Source of the DNA: Advenella mimigardefordensis DPN7
GTDB taxonomy: Bacteria; Pseudomonadota; Gammaproteobacteria; Burkholderiales; Burkholderiaceae_B
Length of the DNA: 64,000 nucleotides
NCBI RefSeq assembly: GCF_000521505.1
Contig: NZ_CP003915.1
Coordinates: 1,984,001-2,048,000 of the forward strand
Reading direction: 5' to 3'
Shown piece by piece: positions 4,461-41,271 of the stretch. The notes beneath the pieces are model-generated. The model did no database searches and was not told the origin of the DNA. It saw nothing but the letters and a program-made list of their open reading frames with translations. A program made the translations under genes and the position numbers. How positions within the stretch are numbered: the first letter of the stretch is position 1; each line of letters begins with the position of its first letter.

Positions 4461-5957
4461 ATGGAATCTTTTGACCTTTTAATTAATGGGCTTTGGGCTG
4501 CCTTTGGTGCAGATATGCTGCTGGCTACGTTCCTGGGTGTTGTACTTGGTCTTGCTGTTGGCGTTCTGCCAGCATTGGGTCCAGCGGCAGCCGTAGCTAT
4601 TCTTTTACCCGTAATTGTACAATTTGAACCAGCGACCGCGATAGCTGGATTGGCCGGGGTTTATTATGGAGCCATGTACGGAGGAGCGGTCACTTCCATT
4701 TTACTAGGAATCCCCGGTGAGTCAGCCTCGCTTATGACAATGCTTGATGGCTATCCGCTTGCACAGCGTGGCGAAGCAGGCCGTGCATTAGGTATTAGTA
4801 TCTTTGCATCGTTCATTGGCGGGATGATAGCAATCGTGCTTTTCACTGCGGTTGCTGCGCCTTTTGCCGAGTTTGCGGTCAGATTTGGTCCGCCAGAAAT
4901 GACGGCTTTGATGATCATGGCGCTGGTGTTTTCGACTGCACTAGGCGGCGACGATGTGTGGAAAGGATTCGTTGCGTTGGGGCTTGGACTATGGCTGGGA
5001 ACAATGGGCCTGGATATTGTGTCGGGATTGCCAAGGTTCGACTTCGGAACGGTTGAATTGCTTGAAGGCATAGAGTTCGCTGTTGTTGCCATTGGTTTAT
5101 TCGGTCTGGGCGAAATTTTTGTTTCGATCAGTGAAAAGACTGAGCAAGTAGAGCGGCCTTCATATACTTTTCGTTCGCTTTTGCCGCGGATCAACGATAT
5201 TCTCGTTACCTGGAAGGACTGGCTTATGGGATCCGTTGTAGGATTTATTATTGGTGTATTGCCTGGTGCAGGCGCGACAGCATCAACAATTTTTTCCTAT
5301 TCCGTTTCAAAAAAAATGTCAAAGAATCCAGAGAAATTCGGTAAAGGTTCGCTCAGCGGTGTTGCTGCACCTGAATCAGCGAACAATGCATGTTCGTATT
5401 CGGCGATGATACCTCTGTTCACTTTGGGAATCCCGGGCTCGGGAACGACAGCGATCATGCTTGGTGGTCTCTTGATGCTTGGATTACAGCCTGGGCCGTT
5501 GTTATTTGAACAGCATGCGGATTTCATTTGGCCGGTTATAGGCACGTTCTATACGGGTAACCTGATATTGTTCGTTCTGACCATTTTACTGGTTCCGGTG
5601 TTGGCATCAATTGTGTTTATTCCTATACAGGTGCTTTTTCCTATTGTGACGGGGATCGTTCTTTATGGTGTATATGGTTTGAATAATAGTATTTTTGATA
5701 TTGGAGTAGCATTGTTTTTTGGTGTGCTTGGCTATGTGTTCAAAAAATTGCATTACCCGTCTGTTCCCGTACTTTTGGGTTTAGTATTAGGTCCGATATT
5801 GGAGCAGGGCGTGAGGCGTTCGTTGATCATGTCAGATGGAAATCCGTCGATTTTCTTTGAAAGCTATATTTCAGTTATGCTATTGCTGGCGACAGCTTCA
5901 TTGATCTTTATTCCATTGGTTAAGAAAGTCATGAGAGTTAGAGCAGGCACGTCCTGA
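4461..5957 (+). CDS. tctA: Tripartite tricarboxylate transporter large membrane subunit
   Basis: This 498-residue, very hydrophobic protein has about twelve membrane helices and is the channel-forming TctA subunit. The family blocks are clear: a glycine/proline-rich first repeat (GVLPALGPAAAVAIL, then GIPGESAS) and a second one (GVLPGAGATAS, then GIPGSGTTA). This shows the internal duplication of the family. ATG 4461 starts the normal MESFDLLINGL N-terminus; the upstream extension to 4419 overlaps tctB and is unlikely. It closes the tctCBA operon, and a two-way terminator follows. Confidence 0.93.
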   Translation: MESFDLLINGLWAAFGADMLLATFLGVVLGLAVGVLPALGPAAAVAILLPVIVQFEPATAIAGLAGVYYGAMYGGAVTSILLGIPGESASLMTMLDGYPLAQRGEAGRALGISIFASFIGGMIAIVLFTAVAAPFAEFAVRFGPPEMTALMIMALVFSTALGGDDVWKGFVALGLGLWLGTMGLDIVSGLPRFDFGTVELLEGIEFAVVAIGLFGLGEIFVSISEKTEQVERPSYTFRSLLPRINDILVTWKDWLMGSVVGFIIGVLPGAGATASTIFSYSVSKKMSKNPEKFGKGSLSGVAAPESANNACSYSAMIPLFTLGIPGSGTTAIMLGGLLMLGLQPGPLLFEQHADFIWPVIGTFYTGNLILFVLTILLVPVLASIVFIPIQVLFPIVTGIVLYGVYGLNNSIFDIGVALFFGVLGYVFKKLHYPSVPVLLGLVLGPILEQGVRRSLIMSDGNPSIFFESYISVMLLLATASLIFIPLVKKVMRVRAGTS

Positions 5958-32947: not shown

Positions 32948-33919
32948 CTATTTTTCAGATGGCGGCATTTCCTTTATGACCTGCGCCCACTTATCGGACT
33001 CCTGGGTAATGAAGGATTGGAACGATTTTGCGTCCGCAAATGCCGGTTCAACGGCAATTTTGACAAATTGACTCTGCAGTGAAGGATTGGCTATCGCCTC
33101 ACTTACCGCGTAAGACAATTTGTCGCGAATCGCAACTGGTGTTTTTGCCGGAACAAATAATCCCATCCACCCGGATGCTGAATAGCCCTTAATTCCGGCT
33201 TCGTCAATAGTGGGTATGTCCGGCGCGACTTTACTGCGACTGGCGCTTGTCACTCCCAGGGCTGTTAGCTTTCCGGCTCTGATGTGCGGATAGGCTGAGG
33301 TCAGATCAACGACGGCGGCCGGAATATAACCGCCCAGCAGATCGGTAACCGCAGGGCCGCTGCCTTTATAAGGTACTGCCAATAACTGTACCTGAGCCAT
33401 GTTTGCAAGCAATTGGCCGGCAAGATGCTGGGATGTGTACTGGCCTGCATGTCCAAATGAAACAGTACCTGGGGAGCTACGCGCAGCCTTCAGCAATGCC
33501 TGTAAATTGGGATATCCGTTGGAAACATTGGAAACCAGAACCAGCGGAATATCTGCCAGTTTTGCAACCGGAGCGAGATCTCGCTCGGGCTTCAGGGGAG
33601 GCGCGTCCGGCAGATGAGGGCTGACGGCGATCGCGCCAGTAGCACCCAGGCCAATTGCGTAGCCATCGGCGGGCATTTTCGAGAGCGCCATCAGACCAAG
33701 CGATCCACCCGCTCCTGGTTTATTTTCCACGACTACAGGTTGACCCAGGCTGGAAGAGAGTTCGCGACCGACTGCTCTTGCAATCAGATCAGCAGATGCG
33801 CCAGGCGCAAACGGAACAATGAGTGTAATGGGCTTTTCAGGATAGCTCTGGGCCGTTGCGCCATGTGACACAACGGCAAGGCTTGCGCCTAGCACAGCAC
33901 GGAATAGGGAAGTGAACAT
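32948..33919 (-). CDS. Bug/TctC-type periplasmic receptor (second of tandem pair)
   Basis: This 323-residue receptor has a Sec signal peptide (to about VSHGATAQS), then YPEKPITLIVPFAPGASADLIAR, ENKPGAGGSLG and DLLGGYIPAAVVD. AAGGAG precedes the start, which lies 15 bp after the stop of the other receptor gene, so both are in one transcript. The upstream operator sites suggest control by the nearby IclR protein, linking the pair to the dioxygenase operon. No TctAB in the vicinity. Confidence 0.88.
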   Translation of the reverse strand: MFTSLFRAVLGASLAVVSHGATAQSYPEKPITLIVPFAPGASADLIARAVGRELSSSLGQPVVVENKPGAGGSLGLMALSKMPADGYAIGLGATGAIAVSPHLPDAPPLKPERDLAPVAKLADIPLVLVSNVSNGYPNLQALLKAARSSPGTVSFGHAGQYTSQHLAGQLLANMAQVQLLAVPYKGSGPAVTDLLGGYIPAAVVDLTSAYPHIRAGKLTALGVTSASRSKVAPDIPTIDEAGIKGYSASGWMGLFVPAKTPVAIRDKLSYAVSEAIANPSLQSQFVKIAVEPAFADAKSFQSFITQESDKWAQVIKEMPPSEK

Positions 33920-33934
33920 TATGGCTCCTTGGCA

Positions 33935-34939
33935 TTATTCAGGTTTGAGGTGTGCTGATGTGGCCACCTTATCCCATCGGGCAATATCCTGAACAATACG
34001 CTGACCGAGCGCGGCGGAATCGGCATCGCCCGGATCCATGCCAAGAGAGTGCAATTTCTGGATGAGTTCCTTATCTTTCAGAATGTCCGTTACAGCGCTG
34101 CGCAATTTTGCCAGTACGGGTTCAGGTGTTCCCTTTGGGGCCATTAAGGCTGTCCAAATGGTGACGTCGTAGCCAGGATATCCATTTTCTGCTACGGTCG
34201 GTATATCAGGAAAGGCGGCTGAGCGTTTCCCGGTTGTCACTGCGAGGGCACGCAGCTTGCCTGCCTTCACTTGTGGTGCGATGGCGGCACTGTCCAGAAC
34301 ACCTACCTGAATTTCCTGGCCTAGGAGAGCCGTGACCACCGGGCCTGATCCGCGGTACGAAATATGGTTGAATTTGATTCCGGATGCTTCTGAGAGTGTT
34401 TCTGCGACAAGTTGAAATGAAGACGAGGCAACACCGTGATCAAGTTGGCCATCTTTATGATTTTTGCCGTATTGCTCGAGCTCTTTAAGATTCTTTACCG
34501 GCAGTGCACTTGGAACAGTCACAATCAGCGGGAAAGAGCCGAGTAAGGCGATAGGCTCGAGATCTTTTACGGGATCATACGATATCGACTTCATCATAAT
34601 GGGATTAACGGTAAGTCCGCCACTGGATGATACCAGAAGCGTATAGCCGTCCGGTTTTGCTTTAGCCACATAACCAGTGCCGATAGCAGAACTGGCCCCG
34701 GGTTTATTTTCAACGACAAAACTTTGTTTCAGGTGCTCTTGCAACTTGGCCGAAATAAGACGTGCCAGTATATCGTTGGTTCCGCCGGGGGCAAAACCAA
34801 CAACGATATTTACTGCGTGGTCGGGGTATGTGTCAGCGGCAAGCGCCGACTGGCTACAGACTGACAGTGCGGTACCCGCAATGGCTGCACAGATCGCGTG
34901 AAGGGACGCCCGACGGGTTCGGGAGTAACGGTTGAACAT
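33935..34939 (-). CDS. Bug/TctC-type periplasmic receptor (first of tandem pair)
   Basis: This 334-residue receptor has an R-rich signal peptide (MFNRYSRTRRASLH then a hydrophobic run ending near ALAAD). Pocket motifs are NIVVGFAPGGTNDILAR and ENKPGASSAIG. The start at 34939 is preferred to 34972 because GAGGAGA lies seven bases before it. Two TCCG-N5-CGGA palindromes lie at 34977-34993 and 35046-35060 upstream. Related receptors bind aromatic carboxylates such as terephthalate; that function here is inferred. Confidence 0.88.
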   Translation of the reverse strand: MFNRYSRTRRASLHAICAAIAGTALSVCSQSALAADTYPDHAVNIVVGFAPGGTNDILARLISAKLQEHLKQSFVVENKPGASSAIGTGYVAKAKPDGYTLLVSSSGGLTVNPIMMKSISYDPVKDLEPIALLGSFPLIVTVPSALPVKNLKELEQYGKNHKDGQLDHGVASSSFQLVAETLSEASGIKFNHISYRGSGPVVTALLGQEIQVGVLDSAAIAPQVKAGKLRALAVTTGKRSAAFPDIPTVAENGYPGYDVTIWTALMAPKGTPEPVLAKLRSAVTDILKDKELIQKLHSLGMDPGDADSAALGQRIVQDIARWDKVATSAHLKPE

Positions 34940-34976
34940 GGAATGTCTCCTCTGTTTATTCGAACTAATCAATAAA

Positions 34977-34993
34977 TATCCGTCAAGCGGATA
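34977..34993. promoter_or_regulatory. IclR-type operator candidate, Bug side, proximal
   Basis: This is a perfect palindrome TATCCG-TCAAG-CGGATA, 38 bp before the Bug start. It has the same TCCG-N5-CGGA core and 5-bp spacer as the sites before the dioxygenase operon. Confidence 0.6.
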
Positions 34994-35045
34994 TCAGTCC
35001 ATTTTCGGATAGTTCTTGATGTGGGTCAATTATTTTGATAATAAA

Positions 35046-35060
35046 GTCCGTCTGTCGGAC
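35046..35060. promoter_or_regulatory. IclR-type operator candidate, Bug side, distal
   Basis: This is a perfect palindrome GTCCG-TCTGT-CGGAC with the same core and spacing as the proximal site, whose centre is 68 bp away. Confidence 0.6.
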
Positions 35061-35192
35061 ATGATATTCTTGATCATTAAGTTCCATCACAGCAAAGGAC
35101 TAGCAGGGACGCGAGCGCGGCGACTGCTCAGAAAGACCCCGTTTTTACATAGACAAAGAGGATTTTGCTTATCGGGTTAACTGGCGAACAAG

Positions 35193-35263
35193 ATAAAAGA
35201 GGGTAATTGATACGCGTGGGCATGCGAAAAAAGCCGAGTTTCGCATTGCCCTTGCAATTACCC
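35193..35263 (-). terminator. Two-tier hairpin, probable terminator of the iclR-type gene
   Basis: The outer arms GGGTAATTG (35201-35209) and CAATTACCC (35255-35263) are perfect. The inner arms GGGCATGCGAAA (35218-35229) and TTTCGCATTGCCC (35239-35251) pair with one bulged base. Read on the minus strand the outer stem is followed by TCTTTTAT, which would serve as a U-rich tail about 110 bp after the regulator stop. Confidence 0.45.
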
Positions 35264-35374
35264 CGGTTGCACAGGTTTATGCCCATCACCTGGGTATCTA
35301 TTCATTTGCCGATCGTTTGTTTTTAGTTTAAGTGAGTTAATTTGATCTGCTTGTAAACAATGCAGACGCAATAA

Positions 35375-36142
35375 TCACGATGGCGTGTTTGAGTATCCGA
35401 GCATGTTTGACAGGATGGCCGATTCACTTTTGAGCAGTTGAGCAAGTTGCTTCAGTTTATTTGCATTGAGCCTCACTTCGGGGCCGAAGATGCCAATGGA
35501 ACCGGCGACCGCAGCGTTTCGGTCAAAAAAAGGAACAGCAATCGCGACCGCACCAGAGATGAGTTCATTGTGACTAGTGGCATAGCCACGTCTGCGCGTC
35601 TGAGTCAGACCATCCTGCAGTATTTTGAGATCAATATCAGAATCCTGGACATAGCGTTGCAGCTCGTCTTCTGTGGTTGGTAAATACGCCAGAATGGCCC
35701 GGCCGGAAGCACCACGCACGATACGTTCCGTGTAGCCGACGCCTCTTTTGAAATTAAGAGGTTGTGGGCTGGGTAGCTCTGCGACACAAAGACGCAGATG
35801 ACCTTGCGGAACAAACATGGCAACAGTTTCTCCCGTTTCACGCCAGATTTTCTGGAGTATGGGATTGGCTATCTGGGATAAGTCCAGACTCGAACTCCAG
35901 ATATGAGCCAATCTGGCAACGGAGGGGCCAAGGCGGAAGCGTTGTGGTTCCCCAACGGACACCAGGAATCCGTGTTCCTCAAGGGTATACAGCAGGCGAT
36001 AGAGCGTGGGCCGAGATAGATCAACCCGCTTTAGCAATTCGCCGGGAGAAAGCTCGACATCCTGTGAGGTAAATGCAAGCAGAATTTCCAATGCGCGGCC
36101 TACCGCACGTACGTTTTCATTTTTTTCGACGGGTTTCACCAT
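35375..36142 (-). CDS. IclR-family transcriptional regulator
   Basis: This 255-residue regulator has an N-terminal winged HTH (RALEILLAFTSQDVELSPGELL, then DLSRPTLYRLLYTLEEHGFL) and a GAF-like effector domain with RGASGRAILAYLP and RRGYATSHNELI. IclR proteins bind short palindromes and often respond to aromatic acids (PcaR, PobR, MhpR types). It is divergent from the dioxygenase operon across 127 bp holding three TCCG-N5-CGGA sites, and two similar sites precede the Bug pair, so it probably controls both. Whether it activates or represses is not visible. Confidence 0.9.
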   Translation of the reverse strand: MVKPVEKNENVRAVGRALEILLAFTSQDVELSPGELLKRVDLSRPTLYRLLYTLEEHGFLVSVGEPQRFRLGPSVARLAHIWSSSLDLSQIANPILQKIWRETGETVAMFVPQGHLRLCVAELPSPQPLNFKRGVGYTERIVRGASGRAILAYLPTTEDELQRYVQDSDIDLKILQDGLTQTRRRGYATSHNELISGAVAIAVPFFDRNAAVAGSIGIFGPEVRLNANKLKQLAQLLKSESAILSNMLGYSNTPS

Positions 36143-36182
36143 GGTTGTAGCTCCTGTTTCTGCGAATTATAAACCGTAATTT

Positions 36183-36197
36183 GTCCGCCAGGCAGAC
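36183..36197. promoter_or_regulatory. IclR-type operator candidate 1 before the dioxygenase operon
   Basis: GTCCG-CCAGG-CAGAC, a palindrome with one mismatch, ends three bases before the -35 box. Confidence 0.5.
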
Positions 36198-36200
36198 ATG

Positions 36201-36230
36201 TTGACAAATAATTAAATATATCCGTACAAT
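36201..36230 (+). promoter_or_regulatory. Sigma-70 promoter of the dioxygenase operon
   Basis: TTGACA (36201-36206), an 18-bp spacer and TACAAT (36225-36230) form a near-consensus promoter. The start of transcription is expected near 36237, giving a leader of about 33 nt before the reductase ATG. Confidence 0.65.
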
Positions 36231-36255
36231 GGATTAAATGTCCATAAAGCGGATA
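36219..36255. promoter_or_regulatory. IclR-type operator candidates 2 and 3 over the promoter
   Basis: TATCCG-TACAA-TGGATT (36219-36235) covers the -10 box. TGTCCA-TAAAG-CGGATA (36239-36255) lies over the expected transcription start. Both share the core and 5-bp spacer of the other sites with one or two mismatches. Their centres are 20 bp apart, about two helical turns, favouring side-by-side binding and repression. Confidence 0.6.
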
Positions 36256-36269
36256 AAAGGAGACTGAAT

Positions 36270-37265
36270 ATGAATAACGTCATCCCTGTTACGTTGCTAT
36301 TTGCCGATGGGGTATCACATCGTTTAGACGTGGCCTGTGGCCAGAGTCTGGTCAACGCGGCAACTGCGTCAGGTTTGAATTTATTGACCGATTGTTCTAA
36401 CGGTCAATGTGGCACCTGTACTGCCCAGTTGCTATCAGGCGAAGTGGAACTGGCGGATTATGATCCGGCGGTACTACCGGACGATGAGCGCGAAGCCGGT
36501 GTGATCTTGCCCTGCGTCTGCCATATTAAAAAATCATGCGTGGTGGAATTTCCGTACGATTCCAGTGAGGCTCTGAGCGAAGAGGCGCCGCCCATTGCAG
36601 GGGAGGTTGTATCTGTAATCCAGATTGCCGCAGAAATCATGAAACTGGAAATTTCAGTTAACGAGAAGTTGCTCTTCGAGCCTGGTCAGTATGTTCGGAT
36701 TCAGCCGGAAGGTACGCAATTTTCGCGTTCATACTCGATGGCCAATCCACCGGGTAGCAATCTGCTTGAGTTCTATATACGCGTGGTATCGGATGGCGCC
36801 TTTTCCAATTGGCTGCTCAATACGCAAGTCGGCGACAAAGTATCGCTCAGTGCGCCTCATGGCACTTTCTTCTTGCGTGATGAAACCAGACCGCGCCTAT
36901 TTGTTGCGGGCGGTAGTGGTATGGCGCCGTTTCTATCAATGTTACGCGCTATGAAAGGACAGACCCAATCGGTTCCTACAACCGTGTTAATCGGCGCACG
37001 CACTCCTGAGCATTTATTTGCGCTGGACGAACTACAGAGTTTGCGTAGTGATATACCTCAATTACAAGTGAAATTTGCACTTGAAGAAGGCGAGTGTCCT
37101 GACAGCTATGCCGGTTATCCAACCGATTTGATCTGTCGTCTTGGGCTGGATGCTGCCACTCGCGTTTATCTGTGCGGTCCGCCGCCTATGGTTGAAGCCG
37201 GTCGTGCAGCGGCACAAGAAGCGGGAATGCCGCGCGGCGATGTGTTGTGCGAGCGCTTTAACTGA
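36270..37265 (+). CDS. Ring-hydroxylating dioxygenase reductase with N-terminal ferredoxin domain
   Basis: This 331-residue BenC-like (class IB) electron-transfer protein starts with a plant-type 2Fe-2S domain: CSNGQCGTC (C-x4-C-x2-C) near residues 42-50 and a fourth cysteine near residue 84. Then come the FAD motif RSYSMANPP and the NAD-binding GGSGMAPFLSML. It passes electrons from NADH to the oxygenase encoded next, so no separate ferredoxin is needed. It is the first gene of the operon, following AAAGGAG. Confidence 0.92.
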   Translation: MNNVIPVTLLFADGVSHRLDVACGQSLVNAATASGLNLLTDCSNGQCGTCTAQLLSGEVELADYDPAVLPDDEREAGVILPCVCHIKKSCVVEFPYDSSEALSEEAPPIAGEVVSVIQIAAEIMKLEISVNEKLLFEPGQYVRIQPEGTQFSRSYSMANPPGSNLLEFYIRVVSDGAFSNWLLNTQVGDKVSLSAPHGTFFLRDETRPRLFVAGGSGMAPFLSMLRAMKGQTQSVPTTVLIGARTPEHLFALDELQSLRSDIPQLQVKFALEEGECPDSYAGYPTDLICRLGLDAATRVYLCGPPPMVEAGRAAAQEAGMPRGDVLCERFN

Positions 37266-37334
37266 ATAGAAATTTTCCAATAGAACGCGTCATGGATGCG
37301 AAACACTTCAACGTCGAATAGTGAGAGACAACCA

Positions 37335-38702
37335 ATGATCCCTATTACTCCTGAATCCAGATACAACGCTTTGATCAACCTTCGCAAGGGCGAGATTGGT
37401 CGGGAAATATTTTCCAGCCGTGAAATCTACGAGGAAGAGCTGGAGCGAGTTTTTACGCGCGCCTGGCTGTTTGTCGGGCATGAGAGCCAGATTCCGAATC
37501 CCGGCGATTACTTTACGTCACGCATGGGTGCCGAGTCGGTGATTCTGGCTCGTGATAAAAAGAAAAAAGTCCACGTTTTCCTGAACTCCTGCCGGCATCG
37601 TGGTATGAAAGTGTGCCAGTACGATCACGGCAATACGCAACTCTTCACTTGCCCCTACCATAGCTGGAGCTATACGACCGAAGGTAAGCTTTTTGGTGTG
37701 CCACAGTTTAAAAATCTGTACGAAGGCTGTATGGAGAAAGAGGACTGGTCACTGATTGAAGTTCCCAAGATGGAAATTTACAAGGGAACCGTGTGGGCTA
37801 CCTGGGATGACAACGCGCCGGATCTGATGACCTATCTTGGCGATGCCAAAACTCATCTGGATCTGGCGCTTGACTGTCGCGATGGACGCGAAGGTGGGTC
37901 CGAGGTGTTGTTCGGTGTTCACAAGTGGATTATTCCCTGCAACTGGAAGTTCGCCGCAGAAAATTTTCTGGGTGATACCTACCATAATGTGAGTCATCGT
38001 TCAGTGGATTTGATTGGTATTGGCCCAAGCGCTGAAGCGGGTGTGAAGGGACGTCGTGATAACGAATTGGAAAAAGCGCAGCATGTGTGGGCTAACTTTC
38101 CCGCGGGTCATGGTGTACATAGTGCGATCATGCCGGAAACCTGGGAATTCCTTGATACATATAAGAATAACCCAGTAGTGGCTGAATACTTTCGCGAAGC
38201 ACATGCCAGGCGCAAGGAGCGGCTGGGCGCGGAACAACACCGTTTAGTGCCATTCGTGGGCACCATTTATCCCAACACATCATTCCACGGCAACCAGCCG
38301 CGTAATTTGTGTGTCTGGCACCCTCATGGTCCGGAGTCGACTGAAGCCTGGCGCTTTTTCCTGGTAGACGCTGATGCGCCTCAGGAAGTCAAGGATTTCC
38401 TGCGTAGCTACTATATGCGGTATTCGGGCCCTGCCGGTATGACGGAGCAGGACGATATGGAAAACTGGAATTACGCGACAGCAGGTAGTCGCGGCGTTAT
38501 CGCCAAACGCTATCCCTATAACTATACGCAGTCCCTCGGTAAAGTTCAGACTTCCGGCCCAGTGTCGGGGAATGTCAGCTTGCAGGTCAGCGAAGAGAAT
38601 CCTCGTCAATTTTATCGGCGCTGGCGCGATTATATGAATGGCGCTGATTGGGACACTTTGCTGGGACGTAAGGACCAGGGTCCTGCCAGTCTGGCGGCTT
38701 GA
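37335..38702 (+). CDS. Aromatic ring-hydroxylating dioxygenase, alpha subunit
   Basis: This is a 455-residue catalytic subunit. The Rieske 2Fe-2S motif is CRHRGMKVC...CPYHSW (C-x-H, 17 residues, C-x2-H) near residues 87-109. The mononuclear iron ligands lie in NFLGDTYHNVSH near 210-222, with a likely third acid in EQDDMENW near 370. It adds O2 to an aromatic ring to give a cis-dihydrodiol. The start at 37335 is preferred; 37296 is in frame upstream. The presence of an SDR and a decarboxylase-like gene suggests an aromatic carboxylate of phthalate or cumate type, which is inference. Confidence 0.92.
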   Translation: MIPITPESRYNALINLRKGEIGREIFSSREIYEEELERVFTRAWLFVGHESQIPNPGDYFTSRMGAESVILARDKKKKVHVFLNSCRHRGMKVCQYDHGNTQLFTCPYHSWSYTTEGKLFGVPQFKNLYEGCMEKEDWSLIEVPKMEIYKGTVWATWDDNAPDLMTYLGDAKTHLDLALDCRDGREGGSEVLFGVHKWIIPCNWKFAAENFLGDTYHNVSHRSVDLIGIGPSAEAGVKGRRDNELEKAQHVWANFPAGHGVHSAIMPETWEFLDTYKNNPVVAEYFREAHARRKERLGAEQHRLVPFVGTIYPNTSFHGNQPRNLCVWHPHGPESTEAWRFFLVDADAPQEVKDFLRSYYMRYSGPAGMTEQDDMENWNYATAGSRGVIAKRYPYNYTQSLGKVQTSGPVSGNVSLQVSEENPRQFYRRWRDYMNGADWDTLLGRKDQGPASLAA

Positions 38703-38706
38703 CGCT

Positions 38707-39522
38707 ATGAGTACAGTTATTGTTACCGGCGGCACATTTGGTCTTGGACTGTCCATCACCGTTGAACTAGCGCGCCGAGGGCATAAGGTTGTTGCGTTCG
38801 GACTTGCACAGCTGCAGGTCTCAAGCACAGCAAATGGCTTTGAGTCGCTGCTGAATGCGTTGCAGGAGGCGGGCTGCACTGCTGATGTGCTTGAGGCGGA
38901 TGTGTCGAATGCCGCTGATGTACAGCGGGTTACGGATTATGCTGTCGAGCGCTATGGCGCCATTCATGGACTTGTCAATAATGCAGCAGTTGGCCCGCTA
39001 GGCACGGTGCTCGACACAGATGAGGCTTTATTCGATCGCATCATCTCGGTGAACCTCAAGGGCACCTATCTAATGAGTCGTGCGGTCGTGCCGCACATGC
39101 AACAGGCCGGGGGAGGCGCCATCGTCAACATTGGATCCGGAGCCGGTTGGGGGAAACCCAACATGGCTGCGTACAGTGCAAGCAAAGGTGGAATAGTCGC
39201 CCTTAGTACGGCGATGGCGTACGATCATTTTCATGATCATATACGTGTCAATGTCGCTATACCGGGAGGCGGAGGCATCATCTCGGGAATGAGCGTGGGC
39301 CGCTTTGGTGGCGATACCGATGCGTTTACGAGAAAACCGGCAGCGGGCACCGCAGCAGGCAGGCCGTTGTCAGGGCAGGACCTGGCTAATACCGTCGCCT
39401 TTCTATTATCTGATGAAGCAGCAACGATCTCAGGCAGCGTGATCGATGTTGGCTGCTTCGCCAATCAGGGCGGTCCTGTCCCGTCTCGTCCTGAAAAAAT
39501 TCAAAGGAGTAAACATGTCTGA
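38707..39522 (+). CDS. SDR, probable cis-dihydrodiol dehydrogenase
   Basis: This 271-residue short-chain dehydrogenase has cofactor loop TGGTFGLG, NNAAVG near residue 90, Ser in IGSGAGWG and the intact catalytic YSASKGG. Placed between alpha and beta subunit genes of the oxygenase, it most likely rearomatises the dihydrodiol to a diol. The start at 38707 gives the normal MSTVIVTGG N-terminus, five bases after the alpha stop. Its last eight bases overlap the beta start. Confidence 0.9.
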   Translation: MSTVIVTGGTFGLGLSITVELARRGHKVVAFGLAQLQVSSTANGFESLLNALQEAGCTADVLEADVSNAADVQRVTDYAVERYGAIHGLVNNAAVGPLGTVLDTDEALFDRIISVNLKGTYLMSRAVVPHMQQAGGGAIVNIGSGAGWGKPNMAAYSASKGGIVALSTAMAYDHFHDHIRVNVAIPGGGGIISGMSVGRFGGDTDAFTRKPAAGTAAGRPLSGQDLANTVAFLLSDEAATISGSVIDVGCFANQGGPVPSRPEKIQRSKHV

Positions 39523-40105
39523 GATTATTGAAGAAACCGCAGCGGTCTCAAAGCCGGTAGCGCACGTTGTGCGCGATGCCCGCTATTACGAAATAAAACG
39601 TGAGATTGAAGAGTTTTTGTACGACGAAGCCAATATGCTCGACGAACGCCGCTTTCAAGAGTGGCTGGATACGCTGGCGGATGACCTGAGTTATTTCATG
39701 CCCATGGAATATAACGTGAAAGCCGGCGAACATGCGACGCGTGAATTTACCACTCGTGAAAATCAGATGAGTTGGTTCAATGAAGGGAAATGGACGCTAA
39801 TGAAGCGGGCCGAGCAAATCATGACTGGCGTGCATTGGGCAGAGGAACCTCTGTCGCGGGTGTGCCGACTGGTTAGCAATATCCAACTGACCCGTATTGT
39901 GAACAATGCTGATGGCGAGCTTGAGGTCGGCGTATCCAGTCGCTTTCTGATTTACCAGAATCGCTGTGAGTATGAGCAGTATTTCTTCGTCGGTGACCGC
40001 GTTGATAGCATGCGCCTCACATCGGACGGCTGGAAATTGACTAGCCGCGAAGTTCATATCCATCAGAACGTGTTGCTTGCTAAAAATCTGACCGTTTTCT
40101 TTTAG
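39515..40105 (+). CDS. Aromatic ring-hydroxylating dioxygenase, beta subunit
   Basis: This 196-residue small subunit of the alpha3beta3 oxygenase has an NTF2-like fold. Family marks are EIEEFLYDEANMLDERRFQEWLDTLADD near residues 25-52 (the DERRFxEWL block) and SRFLIYQNR near 145. The start at 39515 follows AAAGGAG and overlaps the SDR stop. Its TAG stop overlaps the ribosome-binding site of the next small gene. Confidence 0.92.
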   Translation: MSEIIEETAAVSKPVAHVVRDARYYEIKREIEEFLYDEANMLDERRFQEWLDTLADDLSYFMPMEYNVKAGEHATREFTTRENQMSWFNEGKWTLMKRAEQIMTGVHWAEEPLSRVCRLVSNIQLTRIVNNADGELEVGVSSRFLIYQNRCEYEQYFFVGDRVDSMRLTSDGWKLTSREVHIHQNVLLAKNLTVFF

Positions 40106-40285: not shown

Positions 40286-40541
40286 GTATGTAGCGGTGCT
40301 GTCCTCTAATCCCCTTTGTTTCACCCGGTATCGACAACTTTGTTTCGAGATTATCGGGCGGGGCAATGAGGGGTTATTGGGACAATCAAGAATAATCTTT
40401 AATTGAAGGCGACAAATCAATTCCGTTTTTCCGGTTACTTAGCAAGATGATCAGGCTAGTTCCGGTGTACAGACATTTTGTGCAAAAGGATTTGCTGCCA
40501 TATCACATTTGCCAATGTCAGTTCATAAAAAAGGAATATGC

Positions 40542-41271
40542 ATGCATACCGAATTGCAATATCGCCAGGACCTGGCCGCCTGTTATCGCCTGTTCGACTG
40601 GCTGGGGTGGACCGAACTGATTTTCAACCATATCACTTTGCGGGTCCCTCAACGTGAAAATCAACCAGCGGAATATCTCATCAATCCGTTTGGGCTCCAT
40701 TATTCTGAGGTGACTGCCTCCAATCTGGTTCGAATTACGGTCGATGGAACCGTGACCGACGATAGTCAATCCCTGGTGAATCAGGCTGGCTTTGTCATTC
40801 ATAGTGCCATACATGCGTCGAGACCAGACGCTCATTGCATCATCCATGTACACACAACGGCAGGATGCGCCATATCATGCAAGGAAGAGGGCTTGCGCCA
40901 TGATAATTTTTACAGCGCCATGCTGTATGGCGATATTGCCTACCACGATTACGAAGGCGTTACCACGAGCCTTGATGAGCAACCACGTCTGGTCGCGTCG
41001 CTGGGTTCCTGCAATCACCTGATCCTCAGAAACCACGGCTTACTGGTTGTTGCAGAGGATCTACCAACTGCTTTTTAACCGGCTATGGACATTGCAGCGA
41101 GCGTGTGAAATCCAACTGGCCTCAGATTCTGCTGGCGGGTCTAATATCGAAATCTCGCCTTCTATTCTTGCCCGTGTTCCCCAAACCCGTGTCGCCGGCA
41201 GGACTTCCACCAATCAAATGATCTTCGATGCCATGTTGCGGCGGGCGGGAATTGATCGAGCACGTCTGTAA
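40542..41271 (+). pseudogene. Class II aldolase/adducin-type protein, frameshifted
   Basis: The first 178 residues (40542-41078) carry the class II aldolase fold with HVHT metal histidines near residue 106 and the RNHGLLVV strand. The frame then stops at TAA inside five T residues (41072-41076). The +1 frame continues NRLWTLQRACEIQLA... to 41271, exactly the expected C-terminal part, so one extra T breaks the gene. An intact protein would have about 242 residues. Relatives include 3,4-dihydroxyphthalate and 2,3-dihydroxy-p-cumate decarboxylases. The start follows AAGGA. A sequencing error in the T-run is possible. The 256-bp gap before it holds no gene I can support. Confidence 0.82.

Follow-up and report, generated by a model that had tools for sequence, protein, structure and literature searches.

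One IclR regulon probably joins an orphan Bug receptor pair to a ring-hydroxylating dioxygenase operon in Advenella mimigardefordensis DPN7

The window, by which we mean the whole stretch of 64,000 nucleotides analysed from the genome of Advenella mimigardefordensis DPN7, harbors an iclR gene followed in the same direction, on the minus strand, by two genes coding for Bug-type periplasmic receptors, and divergent from a dioxygenase operon, red-alpha-SDR-beta (Table 1). The regulator thus lies between its two presumed targets, as the initial annotation had placed it. Its product is a member of the IclR family of transcription factors, with both domains above the Pfam cut-offs (PF09339 HTH_IclR, 49.4 bits for a cut-off of 22; PF01614 IclR_C, 81.3 bits for a cut-off of 24). 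Its score with TIGR02431, the model of the PcaR/PcaU/PobR subfamily, is below the cut-off (97.7 bits, cut-off 284.75 bits). For bug2 we retained the ATG at 34939-34941, which is preceded by GGAG, as the start codon, where the gene caller has a TTG at 34972. Both bug genes code for the TctC domain, which we take to be COG3181, without an adjacent TctA gene. Seven TctA matches are present in the whole genome for 129 of the TctC type, and the nearest lies about 27 kb from the pair (4518-5777 of the window), which justifies the earlier description of these receptors as orphans.

The best NCBIfam score of the reductase is 256.3 bits, under the equivalog cut-off of 500 of that model. The closest PDB relatives of the alpha subunit are biphenyl, benzene and 3-phenylpropionate dioxygenases, and it is HcaE-like, yet it scores under all six NCBIfam cut-offs displayed. 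The beta subunit does clear a subfamily model, named for 3-phenylpropionate/cinnamate dioxygenase (Table 1). The SDR is presumed to be a cis-diol dehydrogenase. Located 3' of this row are a class II aldolase-like gene, a flavin monooxygenase gene and, on the minus strand, a LysR gene. The aldolase-like gene (40509-41253) has a frame break near 41074 and is uninterrupted in three relatives (240-245 aa); the break may reflect real decay or an assembly error.

Five palindromes with the core TCCG-N5-CGGA and a constant spacer of 5 bp had been reported from the initial reading of this region, and all five were found again at the same positions. The two located before the bug pair are perfect. The three before the dioxygenase operon are imperfect as reported, each with a single mismatch to the core. 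Moreover, a sixth site absent from that list, bug site B, was identified between the two perfect ones. It reads TCCA-TTTT-CGGA on the plus strand and TCCG-AAAA-TGGA on the minus strand, and its shortened spacer may represent a true loss or an assembly error. Three sites, termed A, B and C, are therefore present on each side of iclR. A better description of the motif is GTCCR-N5-YGGAC, since the R/Y positions remove two of the three single mismatches and leave one in red site A alone.

Table 1. Genes, putative operators and promoter elements around iclR. Positions are those of the window; sites are given by the bases of the TCCG-N5-CGGA core (13, except in the damaged bug site B).
Feature	Position	Strand	Remarks
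bug1	32948..33919	-	second TctC/Bug-type receptor of the pair; PF03401, 225.7 bits
bug2	33935..34941	-	leading gene of the pair; periplasmic receptor of the TctC/Bug type; PF03401, 229.6 bits
bug site C	34979..34991	-	TCCGN5CGGA without mismatch; its start is 18 bp from that of B, versus 20 bp in relatives
bug site B	34998..35009	-	damaged, spacer 4; spacer 5 in 5/5 relatives
Fnr-type box TTGACCCACATCAA	35016..35029	-	over the bug -35 hexamer (35024-35029); one base off consensus
bug site A	35047..35059	-	perfect TCCGN5CGGA
iclR	35375..36142	-	255 aa, presumed regulator; Pfam HTH_IclR and IclR_C
red site A	36184..36196	+	1 mismatch; lies 42-54 bp ahead of the start codon of iclR
Dioxygenase operon promoter TTGACA-N18-TACAAT	36201..36230	+	11/12 consensus matches
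red site B	36221..36233	+	1 mismatch to TCCG-N5-CGGA; contains the -10 box TACAAT
red site C	36241..36253	+	1 mismatch to TCCG-N5-CGGA
red	36270..37265	+	ferredoxin/FAD/NAD reductase, BenC/MmoC-like; PF00111, PF00970, PF00175
alpha	37296..38702	+	Rieske ring-hydroxylating dioxygenase large subunit; PF00355 and PF00848
SDR	38638..39522	+	PF00106
beta	39446..40105	+	dioxygenase small subunit; PF00866; PRK10069, 210.6 bits (cut-off 145)

The last two palindromes before the dioxygenase operon had been said to cover the -10 box and start site of a near-consensus promoter. The promoter-like hexamers are indeed present and the -10 box lies within the middle site; transcription would start near 36237, which would place red site C at about +5 to +17. 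The bug sites are found at a promoter between co-directional genes, outside any divergent region. There, the best -10 hexamer in the window is a poor GAAAAT (35001-35006) at a spacing of 17 bp, within the damaged site B. Regulation of the bug genes may be altered in this strain, given the 4-bp spacer, the B-C distance of 18 bp and the weakened -10 hexamer. The gap between iclR and bug2 is also longer in the window than in the five relatives described below (432 bp and 148-171 bp, respectively), the extra DNA (35061-35374) lying upstream of site A.

A scan of genome contigs identified an iclR gene 68-80% identical to that of the window in five loci, from Verticiella sediminum, Xenophilus azovorans, a proteobacterial MAG, Limnohabitans and Ramlibacter (L016 to L020). 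All five have a bug2 orthologue (66-77% identical) directly behind iclR and the divergent reductase-alpha-SDR-beta row; a bug1 orthologue (63-68% identical) follows bug2 in L018, L019 and L020 and is missing in L016 and L017. A further locus, L022, was excluded from the comparison because its identities and site letters are the same as those of L016. In this comparison of both flanks among related genomes, which had been suggested as a check, three sites A-B-C are present at each of the 12 promoters of the six genomes, window included. The pattern TCCRN5YGGA is perfect in 31 of these 36 sites and has one mismatch in four (red A in the window and L017, red B in L016, bug A in L017); the remaining one is the damaged bug site B of the window. 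All six reductase promoters have an A-B distance of 37 bp and a B-C distance of 20 bp. In the bug promoters, 48-50 bp separate A from B throughout, while B-C measures 20 bp in five genomes and 18 bp in the window. Beyond these loci, a search of 399 genomes of the order at E <= 1e-105 returned no further orthologue besides that of the own genome, and a search with alpha among 200 genomes of the order gave one further genome (64% and 61% identity).

The promoter elements are conserved together with the sites. The -35 element is TTGAC in all 12 promoters, and in 11 of them a -10 hexamer (TATAAT, TACAAT, TAGAAT or TAAAAT) follows after 18 bp and lies inside site B; the TTGAC-N18 spacing is found at the reductase promoter of all six genomes. 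The only promoter without an 18-bp-spaced -10 hexamer inside an intact site B is the bug promoter of the window. An identical arrangement at two promoters beside an orthologous iclR in five further genomes supports what the initial annotation had proposed, namely that a single IclR regulon spans the bug pair and the dioxygenase operon, as far as this can be judged from sequence comparison.

The expectation that the motif would stand out from background in a genome scan was borne out by the array and not by the bare core. Exact TCCG-N5-CGGA occurs 72 times in the 4.76 Mb of the genome, close to the ~73 copies expected at equal base frequencies and below the 139 copies of a reversed control, and with up to one mismatch allowed 31 sites are present in the window, for 25.4 expected. 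The core alone is thus uninformative and of no use as a regulon finder, whereas its clustering is informative: five sites were never reached when the two intergenic regions were dinucleotide-shuffled 5000 times. The longer RTCCRN5YGGAY is not enriched either (95 copies, 134 for its control). By contrast, the 20-bp pair TCCRN5YGGA-N7-TCCRN5YGGA with no mismatch is present once in the genome, at the dioxygenase promoter; the damaged bug promoter of the window fails to match this pattern. Relaxing the pair to two mismatches gave no sign of further targets in the genome (15 places, 12 for the control, none with one mismatch), which points to a local regulon of two promoters. Across the 268 genomes of the family the perfect pair was found in seven, and its reversed control also in seven among those listed. 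The seven include the own genome and one (G226) whose match has the letters of the bug promoter of L016. Being no commoner than its control, the pair by itself is neither a proof nor a finder, and it is its position beside iclR that counts.

None of 1000 shuffles reached the observed triplet in 11 of the 12 regions, and seven of 1000 did so in the bug region of the window with its damaged site B. When both strands of the window and of the five loci (18.8-20.8 kb) were scanned for triplets spaced in this way, those having no more than one mismatch were confined to these promoters, the bug promoter of the window not being among them; weaker triplets with two or three mismatches fall inside or overlap the same two regions.

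More distant homologues were used to follow the sites away from this gene set. An iclR match at E <= 1e-60 is present in 28 of the 268 family genomes, with 32 match places of which two without a locus were left out. Upstream regions were compared for 29 family loci and for a Variovorax plasmid (L083). These 30 regions include near-duplicates (L024/L025; L029, L030, L031, L033 and L034) as well as L022, which is like L016, and the counts are accordingly not independent. With this proviso, a pair at exactly 20 bp with at most two mismatches is present in 14 of the 30 (near-duplicates included), for a null mean of 0.03, and 20 bp is the sole peak among spacings of 13-60, every other spacing occurring in at most two regions. 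At least one perfect TCCRN5YGGA was found in 23 regions (null mean 0.8), and seven hold none. As the neighboring genes vary among these loci, the sites go with iclR. Site A is rarer: with at most one mismatch and at 36-38 or 47-50 bp, it is found in three of the 23 regions having a pair with at most three mismatches (L022, L043 and L050), or in two of 22 (L043 and L050) once L022, which agrees with L016, is removed. In L029, L038, L041, L042 and L048, site C is asymmetric, with one half TGTCCG and the other TGATA or TGAGA, and site B is intact.

The sites, their spacing, the promoter-like hexamers and their conservation make the following scheme probable, in which binding by IclR, its repressive action, the effector, the start points and the role of site A are inferred. 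IclR would act on two neighboring promoters, the divergent dioxygenase promoter and the bug promoter behind its own gene. A tetramer, made of two dimers, would occupy B and C, which are separated by 20 bp, face the same side of the helix and cover the -10 box and the transcription start, and it would thereby block RNA polymerase. An effector, most likely an aromatic acid or its first product, would release IclR, and periplasmic capture and ring attack would be switched on together. The location of B and C, combined with the reported relation of tandem sites to tetramers (PMC8222616), makes repression with release by an effector the most likely sign of control. Site A would be an extra upstream site, centered at about -47 at one promoter and at about -58 to -60 at the other, and the place of red site A ahead of the iclR start codon makes autoregulation of iclR likely. 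DNA looping between A and B is not favored, 37 bp being 3.5 turns by simple arithmetic.

The sign of control could be the opposite. The same IclR, with the same sites, could be a dual regulator whose main action is effector-dependent activation from site A, B and C being used only to tune the promoter or to keep it silent when effector is missing. Site A is present at both promoters in all six genomes. It lies either just upstream of the -35 element or roughly one turn of the helix beyond, where activators make contact with RNA polymerase. An activating role is described for the comparable regulator TphR (PMC8556258), and activators, repressors and dual regulators all occur in the IclR family (PMC8222616). 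However, site A is rare among the wider homologues that keep the B-C pair (2 of 22), and at the divergent promoter it is explicable by autoregulation of iclR. The core promoters are also good as they stand, 10 of 12 having TTGAC with TATAAT, TACAAT or TAAAAT, which fits repression better. We consider activation from site A possible and rather unlikely.

It is much less likely that the sites belong to another regulator, either an IclR paralogue or a protein of a different family, with iclR a bystander. Paralogues probably exist, as 22 loose candidates for the IclR protein were obtained at first look in the own genome, and binding by the IclR of the window is a prediction; against this, sites follow iclR in 23 of 30 loci with varied neighbors, the motif is of the IclR type, and the pair without mismatch is present just once in the own genome. 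The inverted repeats could, finally, form RNA hairpins, as in a terminator or attenuator between iclR and bug, and bug sites A and C are indeed flagged as terminator-like on the minus strand by a scanner, which reports three such structures in the region for 1.3 in shuffles. This reading was rejected as highly improbable, because T runs are missing after A and C in the sequences of the relatives, the same array recurs in the divergent region, and fixed distances of 20 and 37 bp are not needed by RNA hairpins. Repression of both promoters by the neighboring IclR is therefore retained as the working scheme.

A further sequence element recurs at these promoters. Fnr boxes have a TTGAT-N4-ATCAA-like consensus, and TTGAY-N4-RTCAA overlaps the -35 element in 10 of the 12 promoters, being absent at the reductase promoters of the window and L016. 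As the left half of this box coincides with the -35 element, the right half alone is extra evidence. The pattern has 29 copies in the genome, for four of a reversed control. Fifteen of the 29 were inspected, and several of these (L091, L093, L094, L096 and L097) lie within frames. One copy is located 59 bp before the ccoN frame, and another at the front of an Fnr-like gene, within the called frame and ahead of the part matching the Fnr model, this gene scoring 223.8 bits, just below the model cut-off of 228. The center of a third copy lies 67 bp ahead of a gene of the Crp/Fnr type, which likewise scores below the cut-offs of the models it matches. The pattern looks like the Fnr box of A. mimigardefordensis, which is to be taken as a lead and not as a result, and a box over the -35 element would be expected to cause repression without oxygen. 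A two-key switch can tentatively be imagined, although we regard it as doubtful: if, at both promoters, the middle IclR operator includes the -10 hexamer (TCCR-TAnAAT-GGA) and the -35 element is overlapped by an Fnr-type box, RNA polymerase would start only once substrate has removed IclR and oxygen has removed Fnr. The uptake receptor and the oxygen-needing dioxygenase would then be gated jointly by substrate and oxygen, and the box itself offers a testable link from oxygen to an oxygenase operon.

Several elements of this control are already in print. A TGT-11-ACA motif class with the consensus TGTYCRYW3RYGRACA has been described in the IclR family, and tandem sites at a distance of 18-22 nt, reported for 94 orthologous groups, have been related to tetramers; aromatic metabolism is overrepresented in this class and COG3181 is named as associated with aromatic metabolism (PMC8222616). 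The window resembles this class by its consensus-like sites beside the regulator gene and by their 20-nt distance (PMC8222616). The six-genome site counts given above, scored with the shorter TCCRN5YGGA, agree with the class motif, and the B-C distance, 20 bp in 11 of 12 promoters and 18 bp between site starts in the remaining one, that of the bug genes in the window, falls within the 18-22 nt reported between centers. The gene set of the window, the third site A and the -10 box inside the middle site are not described in the part of that account available to us (PMC8222616).

The closest precedent for the joining of receptor and dioxygenase is the terephthalate operon tphR/tphC-A2A3BA1 of Comamonas, where an IclR-type regulator is head-to-head with the catabolic operon and a TTT receptor is co-expressed with a ring-hydroxylating dioxygenase, the membrane part being encoded elsewhere (PMC8556258, PMC9888244). 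As described there, that system has one promoter for receptor and enzymes, whereas the window has matching arrays of three sites at each of two promoters and codes for two receptors, and the TphR motif, TTTTTGCGCATAGCGCAAAAA (PMC8222616, Table 1), is unlike that of the window. A TphA2-type terminal oxygenase was also rejected for alpha: the chain of the terephthalate dioxygenase is a distant match (7q04, 70.5 bits), biphenyl (1uli, 324.5 bits) and 3-phenylpropionate dioxygenases being closer. PobR of Acinetobacter baylyi has the motif TTGTCCGATSATCGGACAR with an identical TCCG-N5-CGGA core (PMC8222616, Table 1), but the IclR of the window is below the PcaR/PcaU/PobR cut-off and the targets differ. 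PheR of Sphingobium is a single IclR repressor for both phenanthrene uptake and first ring attack, although uptake is there by TonB-type receptors and the operator core, GCAACG in a 44-bp footprint, is unlike that of the window (PMC13273656). No prior account of this gene set was found in titles and abstract openings of the open-licence literature, and it may have been published elsewhere. We regard the locus as a solid new case of an already known type of regulation, to which it adds, to our knowledge, this set of genes, the paired arrays of three sites, the placement of the -10 box within the middle operator of either promoter, and the Fnr-type box.

The ligands of orphan Bug receptors, and the reason why some bacteria have so many, are discussed in PMC5994714, which describes such an excess of TctC-type receptors in Bordetella and Advenella. 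The shared putative operators would tie two orphan receptors to one aromatic pathway, making ligand, carrier and inducer testable together, and the operator pair beside iclR is a possible clue for assigning other orphan receptors. Bug2 resembles, among others, the terephthalate-binding protein 8hka (7.9e-52), receptors with other or unstated ligands scoring higher. Independent evidence that receptor and enzyme belong together comes from four of the wider loci (L037, L039, L048 and L083), where a bug gene precedes the reductase gene in the same orientation, as in a single operon, both being divergent from iclR. In the last of these, on plasmid CP063167.1 of Variovorax paradoxus, the receptor gene heads the reductase-alpha-SDR-beta row, and beta is followed by two hypothetical genes, a second receptor gene and a class II aldolase gene.
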